DNA from: a virus
Direction: 5' to 3' (one strand)
Length of the DNA stretch: 28,150 nucleotides
IMG/VR virus record: IMGVR_UViG_3300030333_000820
Location: 1-28,150 of that record
Below, one piece after another: positions 8,701-27,500 of the stretch (within the stretch, counting starts at the first letter, position 1; every line of letters starts with the position of its first letter). The notes below the pieces were generated by a model, which was not told the origin of the DNA, did not search any database, and saw only the letters and a program-made list of their open reading frames with translations. Position numbers and translations under genes: made by a program.

Positions 8701-11700
8701 GCACTGAAGAGGGTATGGAGATGCTTAGAGAACATATGTCTAAGCCTACAGAAAAAACTACCAAAGATATTGTAGAAAATTTAGACCAAATACCACTTAG
8801 AGAAACATTTAATATACTTAGAGATGCTAAGCAAGAAGGGTTGGCTCAAAAGATTTATGAAAAGATTTTAAAAGTAAATGCTGAGGTTACTGAAAACCTA
8901 GCGGCAGAAGGTGAAATACCAAGAGAACAAGAACTTCAGATAAAAAAACAGAATGCAGATTATGAAGGTGTAATAGAACGTATGGGTAAGTTATTCCCAG
9001 ATGGTTCAATAGGAGCGTATCTTCATAAGTTTTCTCGTGATTATCGGATGCAAGCCCTGCGTAATTATGTAGTTAATAGATTAACAAGACCTCAAGTTGA
9101 TAATAGTGCATCATCAAGAATGAGACCTTGGGAAGTTGGATTGCAATTACCCAATAAGAAAACAGAAGTATTGTCCAGAAAAGAAGGTCAAGATGTATTC
9201 TTTTTAGATGATGGGTTTAAAGAGTTAAGAATTAAGGATGAAATCTTCGGCAAGGATAGGATGACACTTGGTAAACTTTGGGATATAGTTCAAAATAACT
9301 ATAAAGGTTATGAAAATTTCCAAGGTCAGATTAACGATATACTTACTGCTGTTGTTATGCGTGTTCCTATGGATTCAATAAGTGGTGCACACGGACTAAA
9401 GTTTGGTGGTTTTACTGGTATAAAAGGTATGGGTTCTTTATTACATCCCAGAACTATGAGAGCTCTAGGTGGTGCTGATTTAGATGGAGATAAGGCAACT
9501 ATATTCTTTGGTGGTGAGTCTAATGGCTTTAAAAAATCCTGGCGTAAGATGTATGAAGGCTCTAAAGATGAGTATCTAAAAGATGGTGGCACTAGAGAAG
9601 CTCATAATAAAAATGAAATAGACCCTGTAACTGGAGAAGTTTATGCAGAGCAACTTGCTAAAAGGGACCCAGCATTAGAGATGGACCAGAAACACCCAGC
9701 GTCACAATATTCCCCTTTTTGGAGAGAGTATATGTCTAAAGGTGCTTATGAAGGTAGAGATATGCTAGGTGTAGCTGTTACTAGAAGAATGGCTATACTT
9801 GGTGCTTATAATTCTATTAGAGGGATGACATCTCCTGAAGGAAGACATTCAGAAAAGATAGTATTACATTATGATGAAGGTGGTAAAAGAAAATCTGTAG
9901 AGGATGAAATTATACTTACTAAAGATAAGTATAGCGTTCCTTATATGGCTAAGAACAGAGCTGGTGAATGGGTTAAGCGTAGAATTATATTTCAAGCTAA
10001 GAAATCAGAAAAAGATTTACAAAGGTTTAGAGAAATGGCTAGGGCGGCGATTGCTCTAGGTTCTGACCCTATGGATGAAGCTGGTCTAAAAGGTGAAAAG
10101 TTTGAACCTAAGATGTTAGATGCTTTATTTGAGTATAAGATTTATGATGTAGTTGGTAAGAATAGACTTGAACCAAACAAGCAGGAAATGAAATTGATGG
10201 GTCAAGGTTATCGTGATTATCTAAAACAAAAAAGTTTACATAAGAAATTTCTACACGTTAATAGCGTTCTTTATGGAAGAAACCATATGGAAGGCAGAAG
10301 ACATAGCTTTGCAGAAATACAAGCTGGAGCTAGAGTATTAGATTTTCTACCAAAAGAATCTAAGAATACATTTTTACCTCAATTAGCTGATAGGATTAAA
10401 GAACTTAACTGGTCTGATAGTATGTTTAAACACGTTAATGGGGATGTATTAAATAGAATATACTTTGAACATAAAGACTTAGTAAGAGATAGTGAATGGC
10501 TTAAAGATGCTATGGGACGCAGTACTCTAAAGACTGAAATGGGTGATTTCATACAAAAAGTTTTAGATGCTGAGTTATGGACTAGAGCTGGGCGTCAAAG
10601 AATAGGTGAGTTTAAAAAGACATTTGATGAGTGGATGCAAGATGGTGTTATTAAAATACCTTGGAACTACAGAGAAGCTGATTTTACTAGAGAAAGTGTT
10701 AGGTTAAACTTCCTTGAGAATGTAAATCTTAAAGCAGAAGATTTTCTTACTAATGATTTAAGTGATATGGCATCATTAAAAAGCATATCAGATGTTGCAA
10801 GAGGTATGGACCCTAGAAGAATATCAGATATACATTCTAAAGTTGATGAGATAAAATCTAAAACAGTATATATGGCAAGGAAACGTAGGGAAATGGATGA
10901 AGCCTTACGCAAAATGGCTGACTTGGAACACGTAAAGCTTGTAGGAGATGAAGGTCATAATGCTTTTAAAGAGATTCCAATCAAAAGAAACCTTAATTCA
11001 CAACTTAAAAAAGCCCGTGATGAGTTTGGTTTTAATGATAAAGCTAGTGCAATGAATGATAGAGTTGCAACGGATGCTTTAATAAGAAGATATAAAAAGA
11101 ATTTATCCCAGCAGGAAAAAGATTTATTTGATATGCTTTACATAGGTACTTTTAGCAAGGGTAATAGAAAAATGCTAGAAAGAATGCAGAAGATGGAGAA
11201 GGCTATGCAAGGCATAGAGGACCCTGAAGTAAGATTAGCATTCGAGCAATTAAAAAGGAATGCAATGAATACCTCCTTAATAAGAGAAGGAGTTAATAGT
11301 AAGGAGATTAGTGATGCCAATTTAAAGAAGTACTTTAGCAACTTTAATCAGTTAATTAAAAAGACTAGAGCCGAGTTGAATGATAGTCAAAAAGAATTAT
11401 TAATGCGTGAAGCTGATGGTAAAGAACCTATTACTAAGTTTATGGACAATGAAGGTAATGAAATTAAAGGTGAGTTTATTGATGCTAATCAAATTGGTGA
11501 GAAAGATATAAAATACCTTGATGAAATCAGACCATTTACTAGATTATATGAAGGTAAGGTTAGGGACCCTGAACTACGGAGATTGTATGATAGTCTTACT
11601 GAACACCTCGAACACTATCATAATATTGATAATATTAATCTAAATGGTTTCTTTAGAGGGATATTTAAAAAGAATATTAATGAAGCTACAAAGCTAGACT

Positions 11701-14525
11701 TACAACAACTTGATAGAATATTTAAAGATATGCGTGATGGTACTTGGTGGCGTAAAACTATGGACTGGATGACTGGTAAAGATAAGAATCCTCAAATTAA
11801 GAGAGCTTATTATTGGATGTTCCCTAAAGCCGTTGATAGAGATTTAATGCGTAACCCAGCTATGATGGAATGGGTTGAAGATGTTGGTCCATATAAAGAC
11901 CACTTAGGAAATACTTTTGAAAATGCCAGAACCGTAAGACCTACGTCAGTCATTGGGACCATACAACAACTTGCTCATAGAACGCAAGAACTTTCTATGC
12001 AAAAGTATGAAGAAGAATCTGCTAGATGGAGAGATGAACTTAGACCATATGTTTCAGCTCTTAAAGATGGTGACATCTTATTTGAAATAGCAGTGGCTAA
12101 GAGGGAAATGAGATATGTTAAGGACAAGTTAAGAAAGAAATATAAAGATAGCTCAAGTGACTATACTTCAAAAGAAATGCCTTATGTAGAGAATTGGAAT
12201 AAGGTTAAAAAAGAATATGAAGTATTAAAGAATAAGAATTATATCATTCCTCTTAAAGAAGGTAATATACAAAAGACAGGCGAACAGGTAATAAACTCTA
12301 TTGACAACTTAATAACTATAAACAATAGAAGAACACGGGATTGGTTAACGGGTAAATCTGAACACGTAAATAAGTGGTTAGATATATCCCAGAATAGCTC
12401 TGGAGAAATTACTTGGAAGGGTGTTGATAGATTAAGGAAAGAATTTCATAAGTATATTATGAAGACTGTACAAGAACAGAAGTCTATACCTATTGAAGAG
12501 ATAGGTGTTGATGGAATGAGACAAATCGTTAAAAGAATACAGATTAGTCAGGTTCCTAATAGATTACGTACTTGGGAGAGATTAAAAGAACTTAGAAAAA
12601 GTTTAGAGGTAACTCCATTTGATGAAACAGGAGACTTAGGTGCTGATTATTATTTCCCTCATATGTCTTTCAATAGAAAATCTGCTAAAAACAAGTTAAA
12701 AGGTGCTTTAAAAAAGATTGTAGATGACCCAGCACTAACCCCAGAAGAGGTAGCCAAAGAATCTAAAAAGATAATGCACCAGTATAAAAAGATGACTGGT
12801 GACTTTATGAGTAGGGATGAAATGGGTGACAATTTTAATGTTATGCAAGATGTACTTACTGCGATGGCTAATGGTAAAAGAAAGAAAGCTGAACACATAT
12901 TAAGTAATGATTTAAAACGTGTAGGTAATCAATTTAGTAGAGATGCTCACATAGGTGGTTGGGAATTAACCCCTGAAGCATATGAAGTTTATATGAAAAA
13001 CATTACTAACACATTCTATAAACAAGCTATGCAATTATCTGCAAGAACATCAATGCACAACTTCAATAATTCTTTCTATAAGAAGACTAAAGATGGAGAC
13101 CTTACTAACGCTTGGATGAAATTCTTTGAACTATATACTCAAAGTGCTATGGGTTATCCTACTCATATTCCTGAAAGAGTAATGAATGACCCTCTTATGA
13201 AGATAAAAGGTACAGCTTATAAATGGTTAGCTGATAGCACAGCTAAGAAAAGAATTAATAGGATAGGTAAAGCTCTTGGTATAGGACGTAAAGAGCTAGA
13301 AAGAATGAACCTAGATGAGAAAACGATTGATGAATTAAGTGGTATAGAATATACCCAGCTACAAGGCTGGGGTGCTTTGGAAGCTAAGTGGCAGTTATCA
13401 TCACTACTTGCTCACCCTAAGAGTTCTATTGCAAACTTATATGGAGGTACTGTACACACTTGGATTAGTACAGGATATGAAAACTTAAAGAACGCTAGGA
13501 ATTTTGATTACTTAAAGACTAATGTTAACCCTAAGTGGGGTAATATGAAAGATGTAGAAAGATGGCTACAATCTAAAGGTATCATTGAAGAATTTTTAGT
13601 TCACGAAGCAGGTTTAAATCCTCAATTAAAAGGTAAAAGAAATCAACAATTTATAAAGAACGCAATCGCTAAGATAAAAAGAGACCCTAACTTTAGTGAT
13701 GAAAGTTTCTTACAACTAGCCAGAAAACACGGAATTACGGACCGTGCGTTTGCCGCCGCAAGTTCATTTATGCGTGTCCCTGAAAGAATTTTAAGACGTG
13801 ATTCATTTATGGCTCATTATTTACAGGCAAAAGAATTATTTGGAGGTGCTATAAGAGATTTTGATAGCCCTTTTCTAATCAATTACGCTAAAAAAGGTGT
13901 AAAGGGTACACAATTCTTGTACTCAGCACCATTTAGACCAATGTTTACTAACAGTACTCTGGGTAGGGTGTTTAGTAGATTCCAACTATGGAGCTGGAAC
14001 TCTGTTCGTTTTAGGAATGACGTAATAAGACGAGCAAAAATTGCAGGATTCCGTGAAGGTACTCCTGAATTTGAATCTTTTCAAAGACTTGCACAAGCTG
14101 ATTTATTTATGCTAGGCTTATCTAATCTATTTATGTATAGTTTATTTGAAAGTTCACTTCCAGCTCCGTGGAACTGGTTCCAAGATACTGCTGATTGGCT
14201 AATGGGAGATGAAAAAGAGAGAGACAGGGCTTTCTTTGGTTCACCACTTGGTCCAATACAAGCTGTTACTCCACCCTCATTTAGACTCTTACCACCTATG
14301 TTTAAGTGGATGGTATCAGGAGATAGTAGTAGATTAACTGACTACTATTTATGGACTATACCACCATTTGGTAGACTCGTTAGAGATGTTGTAGGACCCG
14401 GGGGTATAATAGAGAACCCGTTTTACACAGTAACAAAATTTACAGGATTACCATTGATGCAAGCCGGTCAATTAATTAAACAAGAAAAACCTGAAGCACG
14501 GCGAGGAAGGTTCTTTTACGGATAA
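5745..14525 (+). CDS. Giant virion protein with double-psi beta-barrel RNA polymerase signatures
   Basis: A 2926-aa protein; ATG preceded by GGGGAG. The N-terminal 300 residues contain glycine-rich hydrophobic stretches as in ejection proteins. Residues about 820-900 look like the first barrel of a two-barrel RNA polymerase: SDGA at 821-824, K849, GKYAIH at 864-869, and SAVKQTGKR with K894 and K898. Residues 1206-1249 match the second barrel: R1206-V-P, 39 residues later ADLDGDK with D1245, D1247 and D1249, equivalent to the NADFDGD metal site of cellular beta'. LHP at 1233-1235 is also shared with beta'. A helical stretch (GRDMLGVAVTRRMAILGAYN) follows at about 1340. The remaining 1500 residues are charged and helical, ending in aromatic and hydrophobic segments (FSRFQLWSWNSVRFRND near 2745; LFMLGLSNLFMYSLFES near 2790). 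Known relatives in concept: crAss-like phage virion RNA polymerase, YonO and QDE-1. Packaging in the virion is inferred from gene position. Confidence 0.72.
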   Translation: MADPKEWSPKFDEEQIRGVIDQYVRYPELFNDRDDDIQALEDHAHYYRIPFARNKEHQEAFVSRTLKQFGQGWTEGFTTLPPPKFGIGREPEDTWEGIAHNLGHLSGFVGYLPGGKTLRKLGFLKTYSRIADGIRGKSAPMLAANAIQKRVNNSIEPILKDLPDWATSGIVPDMASGAFHLGTASAISSWTHGVDEMFHAAGFGAVAGGAFRGIGNLKGFGERISAGQLKPNGSPDFSKISAGQKFDLAMRTTAGMAFQGLPSTLQGATTEEQVYQYAMGAFFGFKEIPYQTRTSREFLAESIKEKYGPDPELSPKWDTLTKEMKEIVRKDFQETFQYSADGPSETSHVLFDILSNRGMNLKQIEDIAEQYRGAYEVDPVTGEVNQKTLSPKEVREYKEAYMKDPRFEDPQDLDMHIAEIQEVPGRLMGKNGYIDQVYPQISTVERIDRSNAIWKKWRSLQNEDAKPIPGAEQKIINFIENSYQQVLTESEKGWWRRWAETNRKQKWVEQIEVADGKVRVLEEKTNKLGNTKNLSQEPLIIEEGYRNEYERVNRGKKLPPEDQFFRVLDHIIYGNKEYDLSRAQRGISQQKMVEIRKRLDKAELERLDWDQLKEMADGEAARHMKKVRKAVAEKMWEDGYYYYGGKGDNKKMYFIKQHPSLVKNRGIYKTVLKNMAQVMRKKGVTDFRRKYTKDKNDWMETYGHIKDASKMYDKIYASNILYDLTMNGFSVRVKDLKKGLETVLNDKEFINDPKAFNKRQQIWFNSGLSANERPVIDYIRNNSVNRDISITDPNFKVGLFSEADGRKVKLTDGAEKYAEISDGAIIAREEVVDALNIDKGLPTSGKMNKSFIVAPDPKLGALLGKYAIHIASPELQRYMETNGIHMLMPKSAVKQTGKRLDMMGELYISPDFQDKKFDIEFNGQLFDVPVRSFRTIMSEITSEKFLKRQQVPKQMYSVLSQYGHKSIDPKVIADMFETLSGRAVNGTEEGMEMLREHMSKPTEKTTKDIVENLDQIPLRETFNILRDAKQEGLAQKIYEKILKVNAEVTENLAAEGEIPREQELQIKKQNADYEGVIERMGKLFPDGSIGAYLHKFSRDYRMQALRNYVVNRLTRPQVDNSASSRMRPWEVGLQLPNKKTEVLSRKEGQDVFFLDDGFKELRIKDEIFGKDRMTLGKLWDIVQNNYKGYENFQGQINDILTAVVMRVPMDSISGAHGLKFGGFTGIKGMGSLLHPRTMRALGGADLDGDKATIFFGGESNGFKKSWRKMYEGSKDEYLKDGGTREAHNKNEIDPVTGEVYAEQLAKRDPALEMDQKHPASQYSPFWREYMSKGAYEGRDMLGVAVTRRMAILGAYNSIRGMTSPEGRHSEKIVLHYDEGGKRKSVEDEIILTKDKYSVPYMAKNRAGEWVKRRIIFQAKKSEKDLQRFREMARAAIALGSDPMDEAGLKGEKFEPKMLDALFEYKIYDVVGKNRLEPNKQEMKLMGQGYRDYLKQKSLHKKFLHVNSVLYGRNHMEGRRHSFAEIQAGARVLDFLPKESKNTFLPQLADRIKELNWSDSMFKHVNGDVLNRIYFEHKDLVRDSEWLKDAMGRSTLKTEMGDFIQKVLDAELWTRAGRQRIGEFKKTFDEWMQDGVIKIPWNYREADFTRESVRLNFLENVNLKAEDFLTNDLSDMASLKSISDVARGMDPRRISDIHSKVDEIKSKTVYMARKRREMDEALRKMADLEHVKLVGDEGHNAFKEIPIKRNLNSQLKKARDEFGFNDKASAMNDRVATDALIRRYKKNLSQQEKDLFDMLYIGTFSKGNRKMLERMQKMEKAMQGIEDPEVRLAFEQLKRNAMNTSLIREGVNSKEISDANLKKYFSNFNQLIKKTRAELNDSQKELLMREADGKEPITKFMDNEGNEIKGEFIDANQIGEKDIKYLDEIRPFTRLYEGKVRDPELRRLYDSLTEHLEHYHNIDNINLNGFFRGIFKKNINEATKLDLQQLDRIFKDMRDGTWWRKTMDWMTGKDKNPQIKRAYYWMFPKAVDRDLMRNPAMMEWVEDVGPYKDHLGNTFENARTVRPTSVIGTIQQLAHRTQELSMQKYEEESARWRDELRPYVSALKDGDILFEIAVAKREMRYVKDKLRKKYKDSSSDYTSKEMPYVENWNKVKKEYEVLKNKNYIIPLKEGNIQKTGEQVINSIDNLITINNRRTRDWLTGKSEHVNKWLDISQNSSGEITWKGVDRLRKEFHKYIMKTVQEQKSIPIEEIGVDGMRQIVKRIQISQVPNRLRTWERLKELRKSLEVTPFDETGDLGADYYFPHMSFNRKSAKNKLKGALKKIVDDPALTPEEVAKESKKIMHQYKKMTGDFMSRDEMGDNFNVMQDVLTAMANGKRKKAEHILSNDLKRVGNQFSRDAHIGGWELTPEAYEVYMKNITNTFYKQAMQLSARTSMHNFNNSFYKKTKDGDLTNAWMKFFELYTQSAMGYPTHIPERVMNDPLMKIKGTAYKWLADSTAKKRINRIGKALGIGRKELERMNLDEKTIDELSGIEYTQLQGWGALEAKWQLSSLLAHPKSSIANLYGGTVHTWISTGYENLKNARNFDYLKTNVNPKWGNMKDVERWLQSKGIIEEFLVHEAGLNPQLKGKRNQQFIKNAIAKIKRDPNFSDESFLQLARKHGITDRAFAAASSFMRVPERILRRDSFMAHYLQAKELFGGAIRDFDSPFLINYAKKGVKGTQFLYSAPFRPMFTNSTLGRVFSRFQLWSWNSVRFRNDVIRRAKIAGFREGTPEFESFQRLAQADLFMLGLSNLFMYSLFESSLPAPWNWFQDTADWLMGDEKERDRAFFGSPLGPIQAVTPPSFRLLPPMFKWMVSGDSSRLTDYYLWTIPPFGRLVRDVVGPGGIIENPFYTVTKFTGLPLMQAGQLIKQEKPEARRGRFFYG

Positions 14526-18365: not shown

Positions 18366-18529
18366 AAGTTCTCCTCCGATTTTACGAAAGTTAAGGCAAT
18401 ACCGAACCTCCATACAGCCAGTTGGACTTTCATATTATCATTGTGAAATAATATACTAGTCTGAAATAGCTGAAATAAAGTCAGTACTACACCATTTATT
18501 GGAAAGAATATATCTATAATAGGACTCAC
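18332..18529 (-). CDS. Possible small hydrophobic protein (doubtful)
   Basis: A 65-aa frame whose GTG start overlaps the stop of the Gp157-like gene (GTGA). Its first half is hydrophobic (IIDIFFPINGVVLTLFQLFQ), the second half polar. The ribosome site is weak (GAGGG about 11 bases upstream). It fills an otherwise empty 160-base stretch and overlaps the HTH gene start by 34 bases. It may be a coupled membrane peptide or simply untranslated spacer. Confidence 0.3.
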   Translation of the reverse strand: MSPIIDIFFPINGVVLTLFQLFQTSILFHNDNMKVQLAVWRFGIALTFVKSEENLCRETQEVKKQ

Positions 18530-19053
18530 GAGCGTCTTACCCTCTTTACTTTTTCAATAAAGAATCCGGGAATGTGGACGCCTCTTGTTAAGTCTTTTCT
18601 AGCTTTCTTCTTATCAATACTGGTAGTCATTTTAACTACCTTATACTCATCTGGTACTCGTTCTTCGTCTGCAACTGCTACTGGTCCAAATGTCTCATAG
18701 AGCTTGTATCTTGCAGTATCAGTTTCGTAGACTCCGTTTTCTCCAACTTCTTCTACTACCATAGGTATAAGTGTTTGATTAAAGTATTTCTTTAAAGACT
18801 CTGTAGCTCTTCTACGCACTTTTAATCTTTGTATTTCTTTATTAAGTGCTTCTACTTCAGCGTCTATAAGATGTACTTTCTTGTCAATATTAACCATAAA
18901 ATGGTCAATGCCGTCAAGTTTCCTGCTAATGTCTTTTTTCGTAACTTCTAACGCACTTGTTAGAACCTTTGATTCTTCTTCATTAGCAACTTCTAGTTGG
19001 CATTCTAGGTCAATAAAATCACCTATTAGCTCTCTAGTCGTTTTCTTTTCCAT
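18526..19053 (-). CDS. Gp157-like phage protein
   Basis: 175 aa from ATG at 19053, which has TGAGGAAGAGT upstream; a TTG four codons earlier is less likely. The N-terminal 95 residues form a coiled coil (ELIGDFIDLECQLEVANEEE ... EALNKEIQRLKVRRRATESL), and the C-terminal part has the family pattern ARYKLYETFGPV...VPDEYKV...SIDKKKARKDL...VHIPGFFIEK. This matches the siphovirus Gp157 family, commonly found next to phage recombination and SSB genes and once linked to phage resistance. The molecular role is not established. It overlaps the ribbon-helix-helix gene by 20 bases and lies in the same operon as the primase-helicase. Confidence 0.8.
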   Translation of the reverse strand: MEKKTTRELIGDFIDLECQLEVANEEESKVLTSALEVTKKDISRKLDGIDHFMVNIDKKVHLIDAEVEALNKEIQRLKVRRRATESLKKYFNQTLIPMVVEEVGENGVYETDTARYKLYETFGPVAVADEERVPDEYKVVKMTTSIDKKKARKDLTRGVHIPGFFIEKVKRVRRS

Positions 19054-19201
19054 ACTCTTCCTCAATAGCTTTCTCGATTATGTATTCTAACTGTTTACGC
19101 ATACTACGCTTATTCTTTTGAGCAAGTTTCTGTAGCTGTAACTTCCTTTCCATAGGAATCTCTGTTTTAACTACAGCTTTTTCTCCGAATGGTATAGGCA
19201 T
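19034..19201 (-). CDS. Ribbon-helix-helix (Arc/MetJ-type) protein
   Basis: A 55-aa gene. ATG at 19201 overlaps the primase-helicase stop (TAATG) and has AAAAGGAGGATATA before it, an excellent ribosome site. The protein has a short beta strand (AVVKTEIP), helix A (MERKLQLQKLAQKNKR), a turn and helix B (SMRKQLEYIIEKAIEEEYG), the order and length of Arc/MetJ-type DNA-binding proteins, which dimerise through the strand and insert it into the major groove. It probably represses or modulates early promoters. Family call from fold pattern, not from a specific homologue. Confidence 0.72.
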   Translation of the reverse strand: MPIPFGEKAVVKTEIPMERKLQLQKLAQKNKRSMRKQLEYIIEKAIEEEYGKEND

Positions 19202-20979
19202 TATATCCTCCTTTTTAATCTAAATGATGGAGTCCACATCAATTCAACATCGAACAGGTCCCCATCACTATTCTTAAATAATGATACCGTTTTATCTACT
19301 GAGTCTTGTTTACCATTGATACCAATTACCTTTCTAGAGGCATTTTCTATCGCACCACTACCTTTACCAGCATATATGTCAAGAATCTGGTTACGTGAAT
19401 ACTCACGTGCTACTTGACTTATCTGTATAATGATAATGTCTAGGTTAACTGCAAGATTTGACAGGAAATGTGAAATATACCTGACTTGCTCATACTCTCC
19501 TCTAACACCTCTAGGTACTTCTACTAAGTCTATATAATCAACAACAACCAAGTTAGGCTGTAAGTCTCTTATAGTCTTTTGTATCATATCAGTAGTAGGT
19601 GCTACAGTTTGTAGATTTAGATGTTCTAAGTATTGATTGTAGTTGTCTCCAACATACTTATAATTAGCTGTAACATCGTCTTTGCTCATACCAGCGACTA
19701 TCTGCTGATTACGTCTGTGCATATACCAACCACTTAATTCTAAAGATAAGAACAATGTCGGTATTTGCCACTCTTGTTTGATTTCATCATTATAGAAATC
19801 ATATCCTAACGCTATGTTCTGGGCTAAAGCTGTCTTATTAGCACCAGTAGGTCCGAATATTGTTACTAATTCACCGGGATATATATTACAATCTTTACCT
19901 TCCATACCAAACATTTCAGCTAATGGTATCATTTTACCAGTAAAATCTGATTCTAATCTCTGTTCTAGTTCTGATTGTAAATCTCCTGATGTCTTAATAT
20001 CAACGAGATAGTCTTTGTTTTTGTAATATACGCACTTTGGATTGCAAACACTTGCTAACAACTCGTCTTGACAACCATATTTATATCCGTAGTTATATGT
20101 TGACTCGACCTTGTCTATAACTATCTGTGGATTTAACTGATTGTTATTCCAGTGTAGCAAACTTGCTTTTGTAGCATCACTTGGTATTCCATTCCGTCTA
20201 AAATGCGAAGCTATACGCAATAAAGAATGATTACGACTTCCCTGTTGTGGTCCTTTGTTATACAATGTTTGTACACAATTAACCACATTAGATGGTTCAT
20301 TAACCTTCTGCATTGACCTAACCCTTGGAACTTCATTTACTATTTTTTTTTCTAAGTGACCCTCTCCCCAGAGTTCTTCAACTCCGTGGTCAAGTCTCCT
20401 ATCTTGAGCTAGTTTAACGATGTTCTTATGGTTAGTATATAGTTCTTGCAATGTCAAAGGTATCTTGTACAAAGATGACTTTTGATTTAGACTGTGTGCT
20501 ACTCTTATGAGTGCTGTCCTTGTGTAGACTGCTGGGTCTGTTTTAATATCATCTATTAGATTAAGCATTGTAGCTTTAACTATGTAAGGTAAACTCTCAC
20601 TAGGTTTAAAACCAAAACACTCTGCACTAATATCTATATGATACCCTGTACCACTAAAGTATATTGCATAATTACCCTCTTTAATACTTAATTCTTTAAA
20701 TAAGTAATCCATAACAAACTGTGTCTGTTGTAGAGTGTACTCATCAGTATTTTGAGCTCTATCAATATCTATAGGTACATTATCTATATATCGTGTTCCA
20801 AGGAAATTCTTAACTGTACCGTTTGTTTTAATAAACTTTACAGCATCCTCATCATACATATAGACACTTCTGTATACGGCTTGTTCTTTACCTTGCTCGT
20901 ATACTATATCCCAGAAATCGTCCAAAGGAACGAGAGTCCCCCGTTTAGAGGGACTCCCGATTGCCAGTTCAACAAACAT
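19201..20979 (-). CDS. AEP primase - DnaB-type helicase fusion
   Basis: 592 aa. The N-terminal half is an archaeo-eukaryotic-type primase: D71-x-D73 in VPIDIDR, SGTGYHI with H114, and D148 plus R159 in TDPAVYTRTALIRVAHSLNQ with KSSLYKIPL following. A PriCT-like helical linker (about 245-305, RNHSLLRIASHFRRNG) and cysteines C303, C312, C316 come next. The C-terminal half is a RecA-fold DnaB-like helicase: Walker A GPTGANKT at 376-383, LFLSLELS at 409-416, Walker B LVVVDYIDL at 477-485, then IIIIQISQVAREY. It would prime and unwind the replication fork. The start overlaps the SSB-like stop (TAATG) without its own clear ribosome site, so translation is coupled. No DNA polymerase is in this window. 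Confidence 0.88.
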   Translation of the reverse strand: MFVELAIGSPSKRGTLVPLDDFWDIVYEQGKEQAVYRSVYMYDEDAVKFIKTNGTVKNFLGTRYIDNVPIDIDRAQNTDEYTLQQTQFVMDYLFKELSIKEGNYAIYFSGTGYHIDISAECFGFKPSESLPYIVKATMLNLIDDIKTDPAVYTRTALIRVAHSLNQKSSLYKIPLTLQELYTNHKNIVKLAQDRRLDHGVEELWGEGHLEKKIVNEVPRVRSMQKVNEPSNVVNCVQTLYNKGPQQGSRNHSLLRIASHFRRNGIPSDATKASLLHWNNNQLNPQIVIDKVESTYNYGYKYGCQDELLASVCNPKCVYYKNKDYLVDIKTSGDLQSELEQRLESDFTGKMIPLAEMFGMEGKDCNIYPGELVTIFGPTGANKTALAQNIALGYDFYNDEIKQEWQIPTLFLSLELSGWYMHRRNQQIVAGMSKDDVTANYKYVGDNYNQYLEHLNLQTVAPTTDMIQKTIRDLQPNLVVVDYIDLVEVPRGVRGEYEQVRYISHFLSNLAVNLDIIIIQISQVAREYSRNQILDIYAGKGSGAIENASRKVIGINGKQDSVDKTVSLFKNSDGDLFDVELMWTPSFRLKRRI

Positions 20980-21596
20980 TAGAAAGGAGCATCGTCCATT
21001 TCGGGGATACCACCGTTAGGTTGTACCACATTGTTTGTTGCTACCCCTTGTTGCACCTCTTTGATAAGGTTCTTAGACTTCATAAAATTTATGTAGCCTT
21101 CGAGGTCCTTACGACCAGCAGGTGAATTTTCGACCAACTTAGGAAACACGGTTGTATAAGTTTTACTAGGGTCTTTACGACCTTGTTCTTTATACAGATA
21201 TGCAAGATACCCGTGTTCTGGGTCTACTGGGGAAGTGATATGGTTAGAATTGAGGTAACTGACTAAGTCAATGCTCTCTCCATTACCATCCACCATATTA
21301 CCTTGCACATCTGGTCCACCATCGAAACCAATAGTGTCAAAGAGCCAGTATAGTCTCTTTAAGATTGTGCAAGTTTTGATATTACCATTAGGCTCTCTAT
21401 CAAAAGAACCGGCAAGCCTCATTTCTTGAGGGTATTGCGAACCTTCTAATGATAGTTGACATACTATGTAGACATCAGCCCAATCAAATTGGTCTGCTCT
21501 ATCTTCATAGCTGGTAATACCGACTGGTACGTATCCAAGGAATTTAGAACCATCACTAGCAGTATCTAAACCCTCTGGTCTGAATCGTCCACTCAT
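20979..21596 (-). CDS. SSB-like single-stranded DNA-binding protein
   Basis: 205 aa; ATG overlaps the upstream ATPase stop (ATGA). The body is predicted beta-rich, and the C-terminus ends PEMDDAPF, closely matching the acidic DDxPF tip by which bacterial SSBs recruit partner proteins. The segment before it (GVATNNVVQPNGG) looks like a flexible linker. Placement between a Sak4-like ATPase and a primase-helicase is exactly where phages keep their ssDNA-binding protein. The N-terminal domain does not show a textbook OB-fold pattern that I can identify by eye, so the call rests on tail, length and context. Confidence 0.72.
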   Translation of the reverse strand: MSGRFRPEGLDTASDGSKFLGYVPVGITSYEDRADQFDWADVYIVCQLSLEGSQYPQEMRLAGSFDREPNGNIKTCTILKRLYWLFDTIGFDGGPDVQGNMVDGNGESIDLVSYLNSNHITSPVDPEHGYLAYLYKEQGRKDPSKTYTTVFPKLVENSPAGRKDLEGYINFMKSKNLIKEVQQGVATNNVVQPNGGIPEMDDAPF

Positions 21597-22453
21597 TTTT
21601 CCTCCTTATACTTTAGGATTTCGTTAGATATAGCACTATACTCTAATGGGAGTATCTTTTGAGCAAGAGGTTTTAGTCGTGAACCGACCACTCTCTCGTC
21701 ATACGCCTCAAAAGAGATATAATACTTACCATCTTCTTTGGATGCTGTTGTATATCCAATAACGTCAGCTTTTGCCGCTAATGAGTATCCCAGTCCTCGT
21801 GGTAATTCAGGTGCTAATTGTACTTTGCCATCCTGCATCTGCGATGTTTTAGAATGACTAATTAACACTAGGTTACCACCTTTCTTTTTAATAAGGTCTT
21901 GGAACCTTTTGATGACATCTAGATTTTTACGTCTAGCTTTGCCCCAATCGGCACCCCATTGACCTTCACCCATTGCTGTAATACCTAGTTCGTGAGTAAC
22001 GACTTGTTCAATCCATTCGTTAACTTGACCTATAGTATCTATAGCAATAGTATCATACGGAAGCTCGTCCCATTCTTTAGCTAACCAGTTATAAACCTCT
22101 ATCATAGAGTAAACTGGCATAGCCTTGCCTTTATCTTCTCCAGAACGATACTGATAACCACGCTCTTCAGGTGGTACGGTTTCATTCTGTGCTATTCCGT
22201 TTTCTGTTACTTGTTTACCCTCGTGTAATACGGGGCGTATAGGAGCGTTAAGACTTGTAACAGTTACTGTATTTGCTTTATCAACAAAGTCAGAGCCAAG
22301 GTCAGTGTCGATGATTAATACACCGTCACTTCCCTTTGGGCTCCACTTTGATACAGCAGTAGTCTTACCTGTTTTAGGCTGTCCTATGATTAAATATGTC
22401 AGACCTCCCGGCATTGCTGTCCAGTCGGTTGACACTTTTCTCACTTGTATCAA
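21593..22453 (-). CDS. Sak4-like RecA-fold ATPase (AAA_24 type), TTG start
   Basis: 286 aa. The TTG at 22451-22453 is chosen because AAGGAGG (22460-22466) lies 6 bases upstream. Walker A is GQPKTGKTT at 24-32, followed by LIIDTD at 47-51; Walker B is DTIAIDTIGQV near 134-143, then a sensor-like NLVLISHSK near 200. This is the pattern of short RecA-like phage recombinases of the Sak4 group, which promote single-strand annealing or strand exchange with phage SSB. The gene begins inside the last 80 bases of the E1-like gene and ends overlapping the SSB-like gene, so recombination, ssDNA binding and Ubl activation are co-expressed. Confidence 0.85.
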   Translation of the reverse strand: MIQVRKVSTDWTAMPGGLTYLIIGQPKTGKTTAVSKWSPKGSDGVLIIDTDLGSDFVDKANTVTVTSLNAPIRPVLHEGKQVTENGIAQNETVPPEERGYQYRSGEDKGKAMPVYSMIEVYNWLAKEWDELPYDTIAIDTIGQVNEWIEQVVTHELGITAMGEGQWGADWGKARRKNLDVIKRFQDLIKKKGGNLVLISHSKTSQMQDGKVQLAPELPRGLGYSLAAKADVIGYTTASKEDGKYYISFEAYDERVVGSRLKPLAQKILPLEYSAISNEILKYKEEK

Positions 22454-23138
22454 CTGATACCTCCTTAACTGTTGGAGTTATTAATGTCCCAAATTCGACC
22501 ATATTTGGGTTCAGGCTGGTCCAAATATAGTCATAATATGCAAGACCTGCAACAATATTATATATTTGAGCTAAACCAAGGGACACAATATGGTTAGTAG
22601 CAAAAACTGTGTGTTTCATACTACAAGGTGCTGGTGGGATTGTATGCGTGGGCACCCAAGTTTCGAGGTAGTTATCGTTGCCGAACGTAACTGTAACCAA
22701 TTCTACGCTTGTAGCACCCATACGCATATCAATAAAGAAATGTGGGTTGTCACACTTTAACCACTTATTATATACCATTCGTCTCGATTCCATATCATCC
22801 GTGCAAACAACCATCTTTGGTGTTGCAGTATCATTCATCGTAAAGTTATCTTTTGGTACGAACTCCTGCCAGTCTTCACTATAAGCAGAGAAAAGTCCTT
22901 GTGCAGAATCTTTCTTTGCATTACCAGTTTCGTCTAACGGGTAGCAAGTGGTACTAAGGTTATGGTCTTCTATGACATCGCTGTCATAACCAATAACTTT
23001 GTGCCAACCCATCATAGCTAATCCTTGTATTAAGAATGAGCCAATACCACCTAGTCCTACTACGCTAATAGTACTAAGTGATTCTAATGGTATAAGGTCC
23101 TTATTTCTAAGAAACCTTGTTTTTATTTTGGTTGCCAT
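22374..23138 (-). CDS. ThiF/E1-like ubiquitin-like-protein activating enzyme
   Basis: 254 aa. The Rossmann-type adenylation domain shows VVGLGGIGS (26-34), YDSDVIEDHNL (51-61, with D52, D54 and N60), K75/K76 after a TGN turn, and D114-D115. The probable catalytic cysteine is C172 in IPPAPCSMKHTVFATNH. This arrangement fits E1/ThiF-type enzymes that adenylate the C-terminus of a ubiquitin-like protein and take it up as a thioester. The usual Arg after NL (NLxRQ) is replaced by Thr (NLSTT). The last 40 residues are polar. It overlaps the 145-aa gene by 16 bases and the ATPase gene by 80 bases. The partner Ubl, E2 and JAB genes lie just upstream in the same orientation. Confidence 0.88.
   Translation of the reverse strand: MATKIKTRFLRNKDLIPLESLSTISVVGLGGIGSFLIQGLAMMGWHKVIGYDSDVIEDHNLSTTCYPLDETGNAKKDSAQGLFSAYSEDWQEFVPKDNFTMNDTATPKMVVCTDDMESRRMVYNKWLKCDNPHFFIDMRMGATSVELVTVTFGNDNYLETWVPTHTIPPAPCSMKHTVFATNHIVSLGLAQIYNIVAGLAYYDYIWTSLNPNMVEFGTLITPTVKEVSVDTSEKSVNRLDSNAGRSDIFNHRTA
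22460..22466 (-). promoter_or_regulatory. Shine-Dalgarno that decides the TTG start of the ATPase
   Basis: AAGGAGG on the - strand, 6 bases before TTG 22453-22451, embedded within the E1-like coding sequence. No in-frame ATG with comparable support is found before the Walker A region. Confidence 0.8.
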
Positions 23139-23560
23139 TCAATAAATTCCTTCAACATTGCGTGTGCCGCCTCTTCCGAGCCAAACATAGCAACGTCTTT
23201 TATGCGTGTAGCTTCTTCGTAAAGCTTATTACGCTGGTTATGAATTTCATTATTGTCTTTAGCCTGTTGCTGTCCAAGTTCCTCTTTATATTCGTGGAAC
23301 CCTTTTAACATAGGCTCAATAGAAATATCTCCAAGTGCGGCTCCACCCCAGTGGATGTCTTTTCCATCTCCTAATATTAAATCGATAGCTTTATGAATCT
23401 TTTTAATATCATTGGGATATTCTATTCTTCCGTTAGCTAAGCCCATTTGAGCTATAGCTTTATTACTCATTCCTGTAATCTCTTTAAGCTCGGCTACCTT
23501 TTGGGTAACAATCTCATCGATACGTTTACAGAAATACTTCTTTTGTGGTACTGTCATCAT
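23123..23560 (-). CDS. 145-aa protein between JAB and E1 genes, unknown
   Basis: ATG at 23560 (or 23557) with AAGGAG and suitable spacing. The protein is mostly helical: an N-terminal helix (KKYFCKRIDEIVTQKVAELK), a middle segment, and a C-terminal coiled-coil-like stretch (EELGQQQAKDNNEIHNQRNK) ending in LKEFIEWQPK. No known family is recognised. The C-terminus overlaps the E1-like gene by 16 bases, so it is translationally coupled to it; this makes it a candidate extra component of the Ubl cassette, perhaps an adaptor or a target. It is the first gene behind the structured leader at 23590-23745. Confidence 0.7.
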   Translation of the reverse strand: MMTVPQKKYFCKRIDEIVTQKVAELKEITGMSNKAIAQMGLANGRIEYPNDIKKIHKAIDLILGDGKDIHWGGAALGDISIEPMLKGFHEYKEELGQQQAKDNNEIHNQRNKLYEEATRIKDVAMFGSEEAAHAMLKEFIEWQPK

Positions 23561-23589
23561 ATACAGTTCTCCTTATTATTATATTGATT

Positions 23590-23629
23590 GAAAAGAAAGG
23601 GACTACCAGATGCTGTGTTGATTGGTAGT
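23590..23629 (-). terminator. Attenuator-like hairpin in the leader of the 145-aa/E1 genes
   Basis: On the - strand ACTACCA (23629-23623) pairs with TGGTAGT (23608-23602), 7 bp with a 14-base loop, followed by CCCTTTCTTTTC. The GGTAGTCCC half can alternatively pair with GGGGCTACC (23650-23642), allowing for one bulge, giving two mutually exclusive structures, as in transcription attenuators. Confidence 0.4.
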
Positions 23630-23665
23630 TGTGGAAGGAAAGGTAGCCCCTCTTAAATGTAAGAA

Positions 23666-23745
23666 GGGCACGGCGTTGGTGTTAATTCACTGTATGACTC
23701 GGTACCGGGTTGGCTTAAACCAGAGTCAGAGCAACCGTGCCCTAT
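23666..23745 (-). ncRNA. Structured leader or small RNA (candidate)
   Basis: GGGCACGG (23666-23673) pairs perfectly with CCGTGCCC (23735-23742), closing a 77-base element. Inside, GACTC (23696-23700) pairs with GAGTC (23723-23727), enclosing GGTT (23708-23711) with AACC (23718-23721). It begins at the predicted start of the candidate promoter and precedes the 145-aa gene and E1 gene. The size is that of a tRNA, but no T-arm GTTCRA sequence or cloverleaf fits on either strand. It may be a regulatory leader or a stable small RNA. Confidence 0.45.
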
Positions 23746-23751
23746 GAGACA

Positions 23752-23780
23752 AATATACATCATTCCATCTTTAGATGCAA
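23752..23780 (-). promoter_or_regulatory. Candidate sigma70-type promoter after the JAB gene
   Basis: On the - strand TTGCAT (23780-23775) and TATATT (23757-23752) are separated by exactly 17 bases. The predicted start near 23745 falls two or three bases before the 8-bp stem that opens the structured element. The -35 match is weak (TTG plus no further matches), the -10 is 5 of 6. Confidence 0.5.
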
Positions 23781-23783
23781 GAA

Positions 23784-24677
23784 TTACCAATAAAGGTCCC
23801 CACTACCCATTCCATCCATAAATGAATATGGGTCAGCATTAGGACAATGCTTTCTGGCTTTCTCTACAAAATCGTGATAGGTAATATCCCCGTCACAAAA
23901 CTGCTGAGCCAATTCTTCCATTTTATCAAATTCCCCTTGAGACAGCTCCGTCTGACGGTCCCAAGAGGATAACCTCTTTTTTTCATCAGACTTCTCTTCT
24001 TTCTTCTCCGGTTCTTCTGGAGCTGTTATTCCGTGAACACCATATCCACGTCCATATCCATAGTTACCATAACCACCAACTAAGCTAAGTTGTCCATTAC
24101 CATTAACATAAGTTACCTTCTGTTCTTTCTGTTTAGCTTTCTTGATAGCGTTAGCTTCTGCGACCCAAGCTTTAGGAACATCAATCTTAGGCATTGTTAC
24201 TTGCACATCACCCTCTATTAGATTACTATAGCCAAACCTATCTAAATAGGTAAAGCAACAATCATATGGGTCCTTATTGGAAGCAACAACAGTGCTGAAG
24301 AAGAAACCATCGCTGGTTGCTTGTTCTCTGGCTGTGTCTTTATCTGTTCCTGATAAGAATGCACCCATAGTATGATGTGAATGTATCAATCCTAAATAAC
24401 AATCCTTTAGGTCTGGATACTGTTTATACATTTTAGGTAGAATCTTTCCTAACTTTTCGCCGTCAATCTCTGTTTCTGTACCGTGACCTAAATGTATTGG
24501 TTTAAAATGGACTAGCTCTACTTCAGTAGGAAATCCATTCTTTTCTGCTTTCAGAATCTTATACCACGCTGGTCCACTCCACTCTGTGTCTTTAAAACGA
24601 CTCAAGAGATAGCTGACTTTGTTGTGCATTAGTTCCGAAACCAGAATCTTGAACTGGCTTGTACTTTTCTTTGCCAT
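23784..24677 (-). CDS. JAB/JAMM metalloprotease (deubiquitinase-like)
   Basis: 297 aa. The complete JAMM signature is present: E32 in DTEWSGPAWY, then H99-S-H101, seven residues, S109-x2-D112 (HSHHTMGAFLSGTD). These residues coordinate the zinc and catalytic water. JAB proteins cleave isopeptide or peptide bonds after a ubiquitin-like protein; in bacterial Ubl systems they mature the Ubl tail or remove it from targets. A Gly/Tyr-rich linker (about 200-220) and a helical C-terminal domain with Cys (FCDGDITYHDFVEKARKHC) follow. The ATG at 24677 keeps the first beta strand (FKILVSE); its ribosome site is weak and the gene starts 86 bases inside the E2 gene, so it is probably coupled to E2 translation. 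Confidence 0.9.
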   Translation of the reverse strand: MAKKSTSQFKILVSELMHNKVSYLLSRFKDTEWSGPAWYKILKAEKNGFPTEVELVHFKPIHLGHGTETEIDGEKLGKILPKMYKQYPDLKDCYLGLIHSHHTMGAFLSGTDKDTAREQATSDGFFFSTVVASNKDPYDCCFTYLDRFGYSNLIEGDVQVTMPKIDVPKAWVAEANAIKKAKQKEQKVTYVNGNGQLSLVGGYGNYGYGRGYGVHGITAPEEPEKKEEKSDEKKRLSSWDRQTELSQGEFDKMEELAQQFCDGDITYHDFVEKARKHCPNADPYSFMDGMGSGDLYW

Positions 24678-26220
24678 CTTTAATACCCTTTATTTGCATT
24701 TTGGTTAATTTACTCTCGTAATTACAAAGAGTCTTGTAAGCCATTACATCTGCGAACTTATCTTCCACCTTTACTCTTTCAGTTCTACTTAATGACTCCC
24801 TAAAGCTCTCTAAAACTGCGAATCCACTAACGATACTTTCACCCCAATAGAGATAATCATCACCGTATTCTACTCGAGTCTCTATTCCAAAGAACTCGTA
24901 TACCTTATTTAAGGCTTCGGTCATATCTCTTAGGTAATCGATTCGTTCACTATTACTTCTAGCAATGGTATCAGCCATCGCTTTGTAAATGTCTTCATCA
25001 GCCATAAAGCTAAAGTTTCTATACCCTTTCTTCCTGTTGGCGTGTCTCATAAAATCAAGTAATTCTTCCATCTCAACACCAGCTATGCTAATGCTATCTC
25101 TATTCCTTACTTGATTTGTTAAGTGTGACCTAATGTTATCCTTTAACCTGCTCATTTCCCAATGCCAAGTGCTACTTGGATTAGAACTCCAAGGTTTAGG
25201 AGCATAAAGGTTCGCCTTATCAATAATTGTCTCTGAAATAATAGCTTCAGTTAACCCTTGTGGGGGATAGCTTAAAGCTTTATTTACACGTTCACTTATT
25301 GAATTGTGAATGGTCTCAATCCAGTTGATACCCTTGCGTACTTGGTACCCAAGTTTATCTTCAGTATCGTCTTTATTGACCTTGTTTGATATTGCACCAT
25401 AAAAAGCGTGAAATATACGTAACAAAGATACTCCTTCTTCATACGCTGGATTGTATACCATAGCTTCCACTTGTTCTAAATTCCGACTTACCCAATTAGT
25501 AAAATCAGAAATTCTGGTTCTACGTCTACCGTCACGAGTAAATTTGTACCATAAATGTAAATTGGACATTAAAACTGGTAGTGGCAACATCTTTCTCATA
25601 TACAATGGAAGCGTCCTGTAATACCTATAGATATAGTTAATATCATAATAGGCATCATTGGAAGTCCACGTATTTAAGAAACTTTGTGCTACTGGTACTA
25701 ATGATACCAAATTACCTGTGGCTATAGTCTGTGACCAAGCGTTAGCCCAGCCACCTAAACAAGGTTCATTGTAATCATTAATATGTGGATGTGCTGAATA
25801 AACATTATCGTTTAACCATCTATCCACAGAGGCGTTTTCCCTACCGAAATAAGAATGAGCTACATTCTTTATCCATTCAGGATGTTCGTAATTTTCAGCT
25901 AGACGCACAAATGTAGTCTGGTCTGTTCTAAATACTAAACTATGCTCGTGCAAAGTATAGTTAACAGTACCTCTGAACTTTGGCTGTCCAACTGTAATTC
26001 TAAATGTATAGTATGACCTACTGCATTCATCTTCTTCATCAAAGTAAGTATGATGAGAAACTGAATGAACATCTAGCTTTTCAACAAATGCTTTAGCTGT
26101 ATCATAAGCCTCGCTAACTGTTAGCTTTTGACTTTGATAAGTAGCATTGTTTAACAACCAAGACCTTACTGCTAAGATTTTGGCTTTTACTGTATGTAGT
26201 TTGATAATATTGTTTATCAT
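24592..26220 (-). CDS. E2-like ubiquitin-conjugating enzyme with long helical C-terminus
   Basis: 542 aa from ATG at 26220, which has TAGGAG upstream; an in-frame GTG at 26355 would add 45 residues but lacks a ribosome site. Residues about 35-200 show an E2 fold pattern: helix 1, beta strands (SYYTFRITVG, GTVNYTL, HSLVFRTD), then H144-P145-H146 followed by C154-L-G (HPHINDYNEPCLGGW), equivalent to the HPN...CL element of eukaryotic E2s with C154 as the thioester cysteine, and SFLNTWTSNDAYYDIN as the trailing helix. HPH in place of HPN is seen in several prokaryotic E2 groups. Residues 200-542 are helical, charged, without a recognised domain, and could select targets. Lies between Ubl and JAB genes. 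Confidence 0.82.
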   Translation of the reverse strand: MINNIIKLHTVKAKILAVRSWLLNNATYQSQKLTVSEAYDTAKAFVEKLDVHSVSHHTYFDEEDECSRSYYTFRITVGQPKFRGTVNYTLHEHSLVFRTDQTTFVRLAENYEHPEWIKNVAHSYFGRENASVDRWLNDNVYSAHPHINDYNEPCLGGWANAWSQTIATGNLVSLVPVAQSFLNTWTSNDAYYDINYIYRYYRTLPLYMRKMLPLPVLMSNLHLWYKFTRDGRRRTRISDFTNWVSRNLEQVEAMVYNPAYEEGVSLLRIFHAFYGAISNKVNKDDTEDKLGYQVRKGINWIETIHNSISERVNKALSYPPQGLTEAIISETIIDKANLYAPKPWSSNPSSTWHWEMSRLKDNIRSHLTNQVRNRDSISIAGVEMEELLDFMRHANRKKGYRNFSFMADEDIYKAMADTIARSNSERIDYLRDMTEALNKVYEFFGIETRVEYGDDYLYWGESIVSGFAVLESFRESLSRTERVKVEDKFADVMAYKTLCNYESKLTKMQIKGIKDGKEKYKPVQDSGFGTNAQQSQLSLESF

Positions 26221-26365
26221 AATACTCCTACTTATGAACATTGGAATCATCGTAAGCGTGACGGTCCGGCTTTTTAGCCCTACGGAGTGTTCCTCTATTG
26301 GACGCACATAGTCGGTTTTATTACTATTGGCTTCACGCCACGCTACACGAATCACTTATTTAATG
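26221..26365 (-). other. 145-base spacer between Ubl and E2 genes
   Basis: No separate gene is supported. The E2 frame stays open through most of it to a GTG at 26355, so an N-terminal extension of E2 cannot be excluded. A small hairpin (GGCT-AAAA-AGCC on the - strand) is present. No promoter is convincing. Confidence 0.4.
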
Positions 26366-26569
26366 CTAACAGCCTGATGTCACCTTATCAGTAACAAAAG
26401 CAACAAAGTCATCATCTCTCAATGACGCATTTGGCTCTGCTTTCTTAGCATTAACATTGATAGTGGTGTTATCTAGTGAGATACCTAATGATTCAGCTAA
26501 TCCTGCTGGATTGTCTGCTTCCATAGTCTTTACTACACCACCGAAGGTTTGTACTAGTACCTTAGCCAT
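26366..26569 (-). CDS. Ubiquitin-like beta-grasp protein (ThiS/MoaD/PRTRC-C-like) ending Gly-Cys
   Basis: 67 aa from ATG at 26569, which has GGAGGAAAGTCAAT upstream; a longer frame to 26656 is rejected. The pattern is that of a minimal beta-grasp fold: strand 1 AKVLVQTFGG, a hairpin return, helix around NPAGLAESLG, then INVNAKKAEPNASLRDDDFV, closely matching the ThiS/MoaD consensus 'VxVNGxxAxxxxxLxDGDxVxxV'. The C-terminus is TDKVTSGC: Gly followed by a single Cys rather than Gly-Gly. Ubl proteins of this size are adenylated by ThiF/E1 enzymes through a C-terminal Gly. The next genes are E2-like and JAB-like, and a ParB-like gene lies upstream, as in PRTRC cassettes. It probably conjugates to proteins, though sulfur transfer cannot be excluded. 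Confidence 0.82.
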   Translation of the reverse strand: MAKVLVQTFGGVVKTMEADNPAGLAESLGISLDNTTINVNAKKAEPNASLRDDDFVAFVTDKVTSGC

Positions 26570-26594
26570 ATTGACTTTCCTCCAATGTTCGGGG

Positions 26595-26807
26595 TTATGA
26601 AGATTTCTTACGAGGGCGTCCCCGGCGTGGTTTACTCGATTCCGCAAGTTTACCACTAACGCTCTCTAAAGAAAGTTCTAGTTCATTTAACTTATAAGAA
26701 ATACCGTTCAGTCTTCTTTGATGATTTCTTACTTGAAACCATAACGCATTAGTTGCCTTTTTCCAAGGCATTAGTATATTCCTAATCGTTCTTTTTATTC
26801 TACGCAT
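26595..26807 (-). CDS. 70-aa coiled-coil protein with AT-hook tail
   Basis: ATG preceded by TAGGAG. The N-terminus is basic and amphipathic (MRRIKRTIRNILMPWKKA), the middle a probable coiled coil (NGISYKLNELELSLESVSGK), and the C-terminus PRRGRPRKKSS matches the AT-hook core (RGRP) that binds the minor groove of AT-rich DNA. The AT-rich phage genome would be a suitable target. It lies between the ParB-like and Ubl genes, so it may be a DNA-bound partner or substrate of the Ubl system; that link is inference. Confidence 0.7.
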   Translation of the reverse strand: MRRIKRTIRNILMPWKKATNALWFQVRNHQRRLNGISYKLNELELSLESVSGKLAESSKPRRGRPRKKSS

Positions 26808-26819
26808 TATACGTGTCTC

Positions 26820-27500
26820 CTAGTTAGGGTTAACAAACTTAATATCAATCTTCTTCTTCTGCGTGACACACTTCCTAAGTGTATTTATAGGAATAAAGTG
26901 AGCTATTGCACTCTTTACTCTATATGGCGTCTCTACATTTAGCAAGAAATATGCTAATTGACGCATTGGTGTCTTCCTTTTATCTTGTGTAAAAGGTTTA
27001 ACACCCATATATCTACAATAAATACCCATAGTCATCTGGTATGTCAATGCTGATTTACCATCGTCCAGTATTCTATGGAACATTCCTCTAGCATAAGTTT
27101 TACCTAATGCTCTTTCTAACCATTCGATACGAGATAAATGCACCTTTGGTATGGGAGCACCCTTTAGGTATCTCCACAAATACTGATTACCATTGATTAG
27201 CATCGTATCCTCATTAGCCGCAATAAACATTCTATCGTATACTTCGTGTGAATTGCTGTTATGCTGGATAATCGACACTTTTACCTCTGATTGCTTTTGT
27301 TTCTTCTCTTTAGCAATCTTATTTAACGCTGTGTAGCGTCTATGACCGTCAACAATGGTCATATCATTTGCAACAACAATAGGGACTAATAACCCATTAG
27401 CCGCTATATTAGATGCAAGTACGTTTGTCTTTTTCTCACGCATTGGTGGATTCCAAGGTGAGGGCACTAACTTATCTAGTGTTACTCGTTTATACTTCAT
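26820..27500 (-). CDS. ParB/Srx-fold protein (PRTRC-like ParB)
   Basis: 226 aa from ATG at 27500, preceded by AAGGAGGGAGA. The N-terminal domain matches ParB: VTLDKLVPSPWNPP, NIAANGLLVPIVV (31-43), and DGHRRYTAL (51-59), whose GHRR holds the nucleotide-binding Arg of the ParB/sulfiredoxin fold. Chromosomal ParB proteins are CTPases; phage and plasmid relatives also include nucleases. The remainder is helical and basic, with a C-terminal segment (KKKIDIKFVNPN). A longer frame to 27596 is rejected because it would overlap the zinc-ribbon gene and lacks a ribosome site. Association with Ubl, E2, JAB and E1 genes recalls the PRTRC cassette. No ParA is seen, so partitioning is unlikely. Confidence 0.82.
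   Translation of the reverse strand: MKYKRVTLDKLVPSPWNPPMREKKTNVLASNIAANGLLVPIVVANDMTIVDGHRRYTALNKIAKEKKQKQSEVKVSIIQHNSNSHEVYDRMFIAANEDTMLINGNQYLWRYLKGAPIPKVHLSRIEWLERALGKTYARGMFHRILDDGKSALTYQMTMGIYCRYMGVKPFTQDKRKTPMRQLAYFLLNVETPYRVKSAIAHFIPINTLRKCVTQKKKIDIKFVNPN

Follow-up and report, generated by a model that had tools for sequence, protein, structure and literature searches.

We analyzed a window of 28,150 nucleotides (positions 1 to 28,150 of the IMG/VR virus record IMGVR_UViG_3300030333_000820). The viral record to which it belongs is 41,861 bp long and encodes a large terminase, a P22-like portal and a major head protein. The minus strand carries, in order, genes for a ParB-like protein, a 70-residue protein with an AT-hook-like C-terminus, a 67-residue ubiquitin-like protein (Ubl; 26366-26569), an E2-like protein (24592-26220), a JAB/JAMM metalloprotease (23784-24677), a 145-residue protein, an E1-like ThiF-type adenylating enzyme (22374-23138), a Sak4-like ATPase, an SSB-like protein and a primase-helicase. 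A first-pass annotation had described the Ubl, E2-like, JAMM and ThiF-type E1 genes as a complete ubiquitin-like conjugation cassette, and all four genes and their motifs were verified in the sequence.

A first scan of viral contigs with E1 found 39 loci, which a profile scan raised to 81 distinct E1-bearing contigs, with identities as low as 37%. The comparison of gene order in related phages that the first-pass annotation had called for showed Ubl, E2, JAB and E1 in this order on a single strand in all 46 related marine viral loci spanning the region; at the other loci, the contig starts too near E1 or its preceding gene to reveal the remaining genes. Catalytic residues were invariant among 44-60 diverse sequences with E1 identity as low as 37%, and the ratio of nonsynonymous to synonymous substitution rates (dN/dS) was well below 1 in all eight genes compared, being lowest for Ubl (0.06) and highest for E2 (0.51). 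Because gene order was kept in 46/46 loci, catalytic residues were invariant and dN/dS was well below 1, the observation is confirmed as real and not due to chance.

Genes downstream of E1 were equally constant. The Sak4-like single-stranded-DNA-annealing ATPase (21593-22453; PHROG, 2.8e-27) was present in 80/80 loci, the SSB-like protein (20979-21596; so named in the first-pass annotation, with no family match) in 72/72 and the primase-helicase (19201-20979; PriCT_1 and DnaB_C domains by Pfam/PHROG) in 55/55. As a control against selecting loci by the cassette itself, contigs were also sampled by their primase-helicase; among those with enough sequence, E1 was found in 38/38 and JAB in 32/32. 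Protein distances of E1 correlated with those of the SSB-like protein (r = 0.94) and primase-helicase (r = 0.93), as did those of the replication genes among themselves, and JAB distances also followed those of the replication genes. Given this retention in primase-helicase-sampled contigs and the agreement of E1 distances with those of replication genes, the cassette is a core, vertically inherited part of this phage lineage. Together with the invariant neighbors, these data strongly support the earlier proposal that it is a resident phage function and not a separate island. No close relative of E1 was found in bacterial genomes, in which the best segments of long matches had approximately 28% identity, and therefore no host or prophage was assigned.

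E1 was the only one of the four module proteins to exceed a curated Pfam cut-off (ThiF, 40.9 bits; cut-off 28.1); Ubl and E2 had no family assignment. It contains a GLGGIGS motif and C172 within APCSMKH, and its best PDB profile match was UBA3, the E1 of NEDD8 (9e-6). Residues R11, D52, D54, N60, K75, D114, R119 and C172 were invariant in 60/60 sequences, and C172, previously singled out as catalytic, was also invariant in E1s of crAss-like, Fpv and jumbo phages (21/21 rows, four phage groups). Lys86 and Asp130 of MoeB are adenylation-site residues, and the invariant E1 residues presumably correspond, residue by residue, to the MoeB/ThiF adenylation site. Thus, E1 combines the ThiF profile, the adenylation residues and a catalytic Cys past the adenylation core that characterize the ThiF-MoeB-UBA superfamily. 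The JAB protein, a predicted Ubl maturase and deconjugase, contains the motif H99-S-H101-x7-S109-x2-D112, and E32, H99, H101, S109 and D112 were invariant in 53/53 sequences, giving the E...H[ST]Hx7SxxD metal site of JAMM proteases. Its Prok-JAB score (23.8 bits) was just short of the cut-off of 25, and two relatives scored above it (28.5 and 27.7). CsRpn11 was its top PDB profile match, a weak one (E 0.2).

The E2-like protein is predicted to contain a UBC-like domain in approximately its first 200 residues, with HPH (144-146) followed by C154-L-G, and then a fast-evolving helical C-terminal region. Numbering is from the ATG at 26220; in the longest open reading frame, from a GTG at 26355, C154 becomes C199 and the motif spans 189-201. 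H144, P145, H146, C154 and G156 were invariant in 44/44 sequences, including the cysteine whose loss in homologs would have spoken against the first-pass annotation, and the active-site Cys follows an HPx motif, as in UBC proteins. Median identity was 0.47 in the active-site region and 0.12-0.13 in the helical C-terminus. When the E2 profile was compared with the whole PDB set, only two entries matched, both of them UBE2W (E 0.04), in an alignment that spans the active site (HPHISADGEPCLG to HPHVYSNGHICLS). UBE2W was also the best structural match of the predicted model (Z 6.2), followed by TSG101-UEV, a P. vivax E2 and UbcH5c; the top matches were all E2 or UEV proteins, with Z scores of 6.2-5.0, below the guide value of 8. 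Human UBE2W shares the HPHxxxxGxxCL active site, but has no long helical C-terminus, and the sequence likeness is limited to the active site, with a UBC-like topology in addition. UBE2W attaches ubiquitin to protein N-termini, and this analogy suggests that the phage HPH-type E2 may act on N-termini as well.

The Ubl gene is preceded by a clear ribosome-binding site (GGAGGAAA) before its ATG, and its product ends in DKVTSGC. An AF2 model (pLDDT 88.7, element order EEHEE) predicted a confident beta-grasp, whose best PDB folds were TtuB (Z 9.1), MoaD (8.3), SAMP2 (8.1) and ubiquitin (7.2); Foldseek placed ubiquitin on top (E 2.7e-4). Of the two folds presupposed by the first-pass annotation, a beta-grasp was thus predicted confidently for Ubl and an E2-type fold tentatively for the E2-like protein. 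A Ubl profile gave only weak matches to PDB sequences, e.g., RelA-type proteins, and a BFVD search returned one unnamed viral protein (1.6e-4) plus low-scoring crAss-like proteins. All 31 distinct Ubls contained Ser-Gly, after which came a variable tail of 0-9 residues (none, C, S, A, R, SK, LA, LV, LTA, SCS, NLTFKVKHQ and others); seven stopped exactly at Gly. The Gly-Cys end noted previously is indeed present at 26366-26569; however, the conserved end is Ser-Gly66, and Cys67 is one of many variable tails. Gly-Cys was consequently dropped as the working terminus in favor of a predicted mature end at Ser65-Gly66, with Cys67 as a dispensable tail. The protein thus combines a predicted beta-grasp fold with a conserved C-terminal glycine.

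Tailed Ubls are presumably precursors trimmed by JAB after the glycine. We propose this because the variable-tail pattern resembles the archaeal Ub precursor, which is cut past its glycine by CsRpn11 (PMC6043591). The Ub operon of Caldiarchaeum subterraneum (CsUb, CsRpn11, E1, E2 and RING) shares with the proposed phage pathway such a tailed precursor trimmed by a JAMM protease, and this protease, CsRpn11, is the weak top PDB match of the phage JAB; however, it is cellular, includes a RING E3 and has a Ub that ends in GG. For Ubls without a tail, JAB would serve deconjugation only.

The same order of Ubl, E2, JAB and E1 was also found in cultured phages, including crAss001 (gp79-gp76), DAC15 and Flavobacterium Fpv phages, whose genes were annotated merely as ThiF, metalloprotease or hypothetical. 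In crAss001, gp79 has a Ubl domain ending in KIKSG and then an extension, gp78 contains HSH...PCTG, gp77 is a JAMM protein and gp76 is E1; the set comes after the primase, and one gene separates it from uracil-DNA glycosylase. Further gut phages and Fpv3 show this arrangement. E1 had relatives in 78 annotated phage records. Searching with the E2 candidate of crAss001 identified 74 (29 Flavobacterium, 29 Bacteroides, 12 uncultured and the same single records), i.e., group counts equal to those of the E1 set, minus only four jumbo Xanthomonas/Erwinia phages; a direct search of annotated phages with the marine E2 gave no match. These sets lie beside primase or uracil-DNA glycosylase; they differ from the marine set in that their Ubl has a long extension past KxSG and their E2 has HSH. 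As judged by profile comparison, homology between the marine and gut/Fpv sets is decisive for E1 (E 1.9e-32) and JAB (E 6e-26), whereas for E2 and Ubl it rests on motif and position. Similarity between Sak4 and the crAss ATPase was not significant, and therefore exact synteny of replication genes between the two groups is not claimed. In cr106_1, an HNH endonuclease gene (L044:1680-2883) splits the Ubl gene two residues past KIKSG, so that domain and extension are separate genes and are thus separable in this phage.

Additional partial sets were detected. Xanthomonas jumbo phage PhiXhv-12 (L041:2736-6612) encodes a Ubl candidate ending in SGG, an 892-residue HPH...CLG protein and E1 adjoining topoisomerases; a Prok-JAB search of its full record did not find JAB. 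E2(H[PS]H...CLG)-JAMM-E1 sets are also present on three contigs (L114, L115 and L134) that were assigned by binning to Collierbacteria, Clostridium and Verrucomicrobia; these contigs are probably phage sequence. No report of a complete phage-encoded Ubl pathway was found in the literature, within partial open-access coverage, and a 2021 survey of crAss phages (PMC7886860) makes no mention of ThiF, ubiquitin or JAB in its main text.

Taken together, it is likely that the four proteins function as a complete, catalytically intact pathway for conjugating and deconjugating Ubl, which is core to this phage lineage. Ubl would be made as a precursor and, where a tail is present, cleaved by JAB past Ser65-Gly66. 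The ThiF-type E1 would then adenylate Gly66, hold Ubl as a C172 thioester and hand it to C154 of E2, which may join it to lysines or, by analogy with UBE2W, to protein N-termini. The helical C-terminus of E2, the fastest-diverging part, could serve as a built-in E3, and JAB would undo the conjugates. Remnants predicted from residue masses (VTSG, +344.17 Da; SG, +144.05 Da for crAss001) make the conjugation claim testable.

Several observations weigh against this pathway, in addition to the sub-guide Z scores of the E2 model. Whole-model Foldseek retrieved no E2 at significant E, the helical C-terminus having swamped the signal, and Pfam E2-family profiles did not match any of 29 E2 members at E up to 0.5. 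Although the active sites of marine and gut/Fpv E2 profiles align, their similarity (E 0.03) is not significant, and hhalign gave no signal between marine and crAss Ubls (E 0.46). In addition, Ubl ends in a single Gly (SG) and not in GG, and no E3 gene was recognized in the operon by Pfam/PHROG scans.

The likeliest targets would be phage or host replication and recombination proteins early in infection. The argument for replication or recombination proteins as the principal targets comes from the gene neighborhood only, and we regard this view as plausible, at somewhat less than even chances; phage replication genes cluster regardless. A related and rather unlikely, though serious, explanation is that the same chemistry tags host proteins for takeover or counter-defense, e.g., a host immune or replication protein. 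Compared with Ubl, E1 and the replication genes, E2 diverges much more rapidly (dN/dS 0.51; C-terminal identity 0.12-0.13), as would be expected of a host-facing adaptor, and genes in early phage operons frequently target the host. Furthermore, the bacterial Bil and CBASS systems employ this chemistry defensively (PMC12687455). However, the module was kept in every eligible genome sampled, and the distances of its E1 and JAB follow those of the replication genes, which is atypical for accessory anti-defense genes; rapid E2 divergence may instead mark a structural spacer.

Several known systems resemble the phage pathway in part. PRTRC and type 6d sets of plasmids and mobile elements (Ubl, E2, JAB, E1 and a helical protein) resemble the phage set in having the gene order E2-JAB-E1, E1 and E2 as stand-alone proteins, distantly homologous E1 and JAB proteins and a CxGG-type E2 site. 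They are sporadic mobile cassettes, whereas the marine set is part of a phage core in which ParB is not conserved and E2 has a canonical upstream HPH; E2 of the type 6d bacterial operons (Ubl, E2, JAB, E1) has no upstream His (Iyer et al. 2006, PMC1779556). Capture of such a plasmid cassette by a phage is therefore disfavored and improbable, even though a Cytobacillus plasmid (L147:109-5840) carries a 6d-type Prok-E2_D/JAB/ThiF set in E2-JAB-E1 order beside Rad52 and dnaN, with E1 (E 1.7e-7) and JAB (E 4e-4) distantly related to the phage profiles, and a ParB-like gene lies in the window. Membership in PRTRC, implied by the first-pass annotation, was not borne out: the curated PRTRC_ThiF model scored 24 bits against a cut-off of 144.75 and the PRTRC_A model 12 bits against 101.8, both far too low, PRTRC_C had no match, and the ParB-like gene was rarely detected. 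Because the phage set fails the tested PRTRC cut-offs and keeps HPH, it lies outside PRTRC/6d and, on the profile evidence, is a related, sister-type system and not a member.

Bil (BilABCD) and Bub, each of which combines a Ubl, E1 and E2 with a specific protease into a complete set (PMC12687455), have an equivalent component list, but are bacterial and mainly defensive or stress operons, whereas the phage set is phage-borne and adjoins replication genes. PADLOC 2023 defense models gave only weak generic E1-E2 matches to the phage set. Type II CBASS Cap2/Cap3 has an E1-E2 fusion, whereas E1 and E2 were separate genes in all spanning phage loci. The lambda proteins TAPI/TAPK also combine a phage Ubl-like domain with JAB (PMC1779556), but they are encoded by late tail genes and are accompanied by neither E1 nor E2.

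It is quite improbable that the locus serves ThiS/MoaD-like sulfur transfer, in which a thiocarboxylated Ubl would be used for tRNA, nucleotide or cofactor modification and the E2-like protein would be something else. The best fold matches of Ubl include the sulfur carriers TtuB and MoaD, E1 belongs to the ThiF family, and prokaryotic JAB also accompanies sulfur carriers (PMC1779556). On the other hand, an E2-like gene with invariant HPH...C-x-G was present in every spanning locus and matched UBE2W across the active site, Ubl ends in SG and not GG, and no sulfurtransferase, rhodanese, ThiG or MoaE-like gene was recognized in the operon by Pfam/PHROG. A decayed or regulatory remnant whose proteins bind one another without conjugating is very improbable, since catalytic residues are invariant down to 37% E1 identity under purifying selection, even though no E3 was recognized.

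Returning to the conjugation pathway, we give about even chances to its broadest form: that several distinct tailed-phage lineages, marine and gut, carry a complete Ubl pathway in their replication module that covalently tags replication or host proteins in the course of infection, with maturation and reversal by JAB, and that the marine HPH-type E2 may tag N-termini. Bacterial Ubl systems are known mainly as anti-phage defense, and a full set as phage core genes would reverse this picture and extend ubiquitin-type signaling to phage replication modules. Because crAss001 and DAC15 have been cultured and share the gene order, a previously unnoticed function of abundant human gut viruses becomes accessible to laboratory tests. 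The set also contributes a viral branch, one with an HPH-type E2, to the question of how ubiquitin signaling arose.

Other genes around the four were less constant. The first-pass annotation had placed a ParB-like gene before the cassette, and such a gene is present upstream (26820-27500, minus strand; N-terminal ParB-like domain; PHROG ParB, 8e-12; Pfam ParB_N, 0.002, below its cut-off). It was detected in only 4/23 eligible loci and was dropped as a module component. The 145-residue protein between JAB and E1 (23123-23560, minus strand) was found in 40/65 loci. Given these frequencies, the ParB-like and 145-residue proteins are neighbors rather than parts of the module. The 70-residue accessory protein directly upstream of Ubl (26595-26807, minus strand) was found in 19/40 loci, and its AT-hook-like C-terminal motif, RGRPRKK, was kept in most relatives.

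An Rfam search gave no match, and a scan for promoter-like patterns gave no more matches than expected by chance. Elsewhere in the window, a 2926-residue open reading frame (5745-14525), which had no Pfam or PHROG match when searched as three pieces, contains LGGADLDGDKATIFFGG, resembling the DxDGD motif seen in phage proteins that are similar to RNA polymerase. A Sipho_Gp157-family protein (18526-19065; Pfam, 5.5e-14) is encoded downstream of the primase-helicase and was kept in 47/47 loci.

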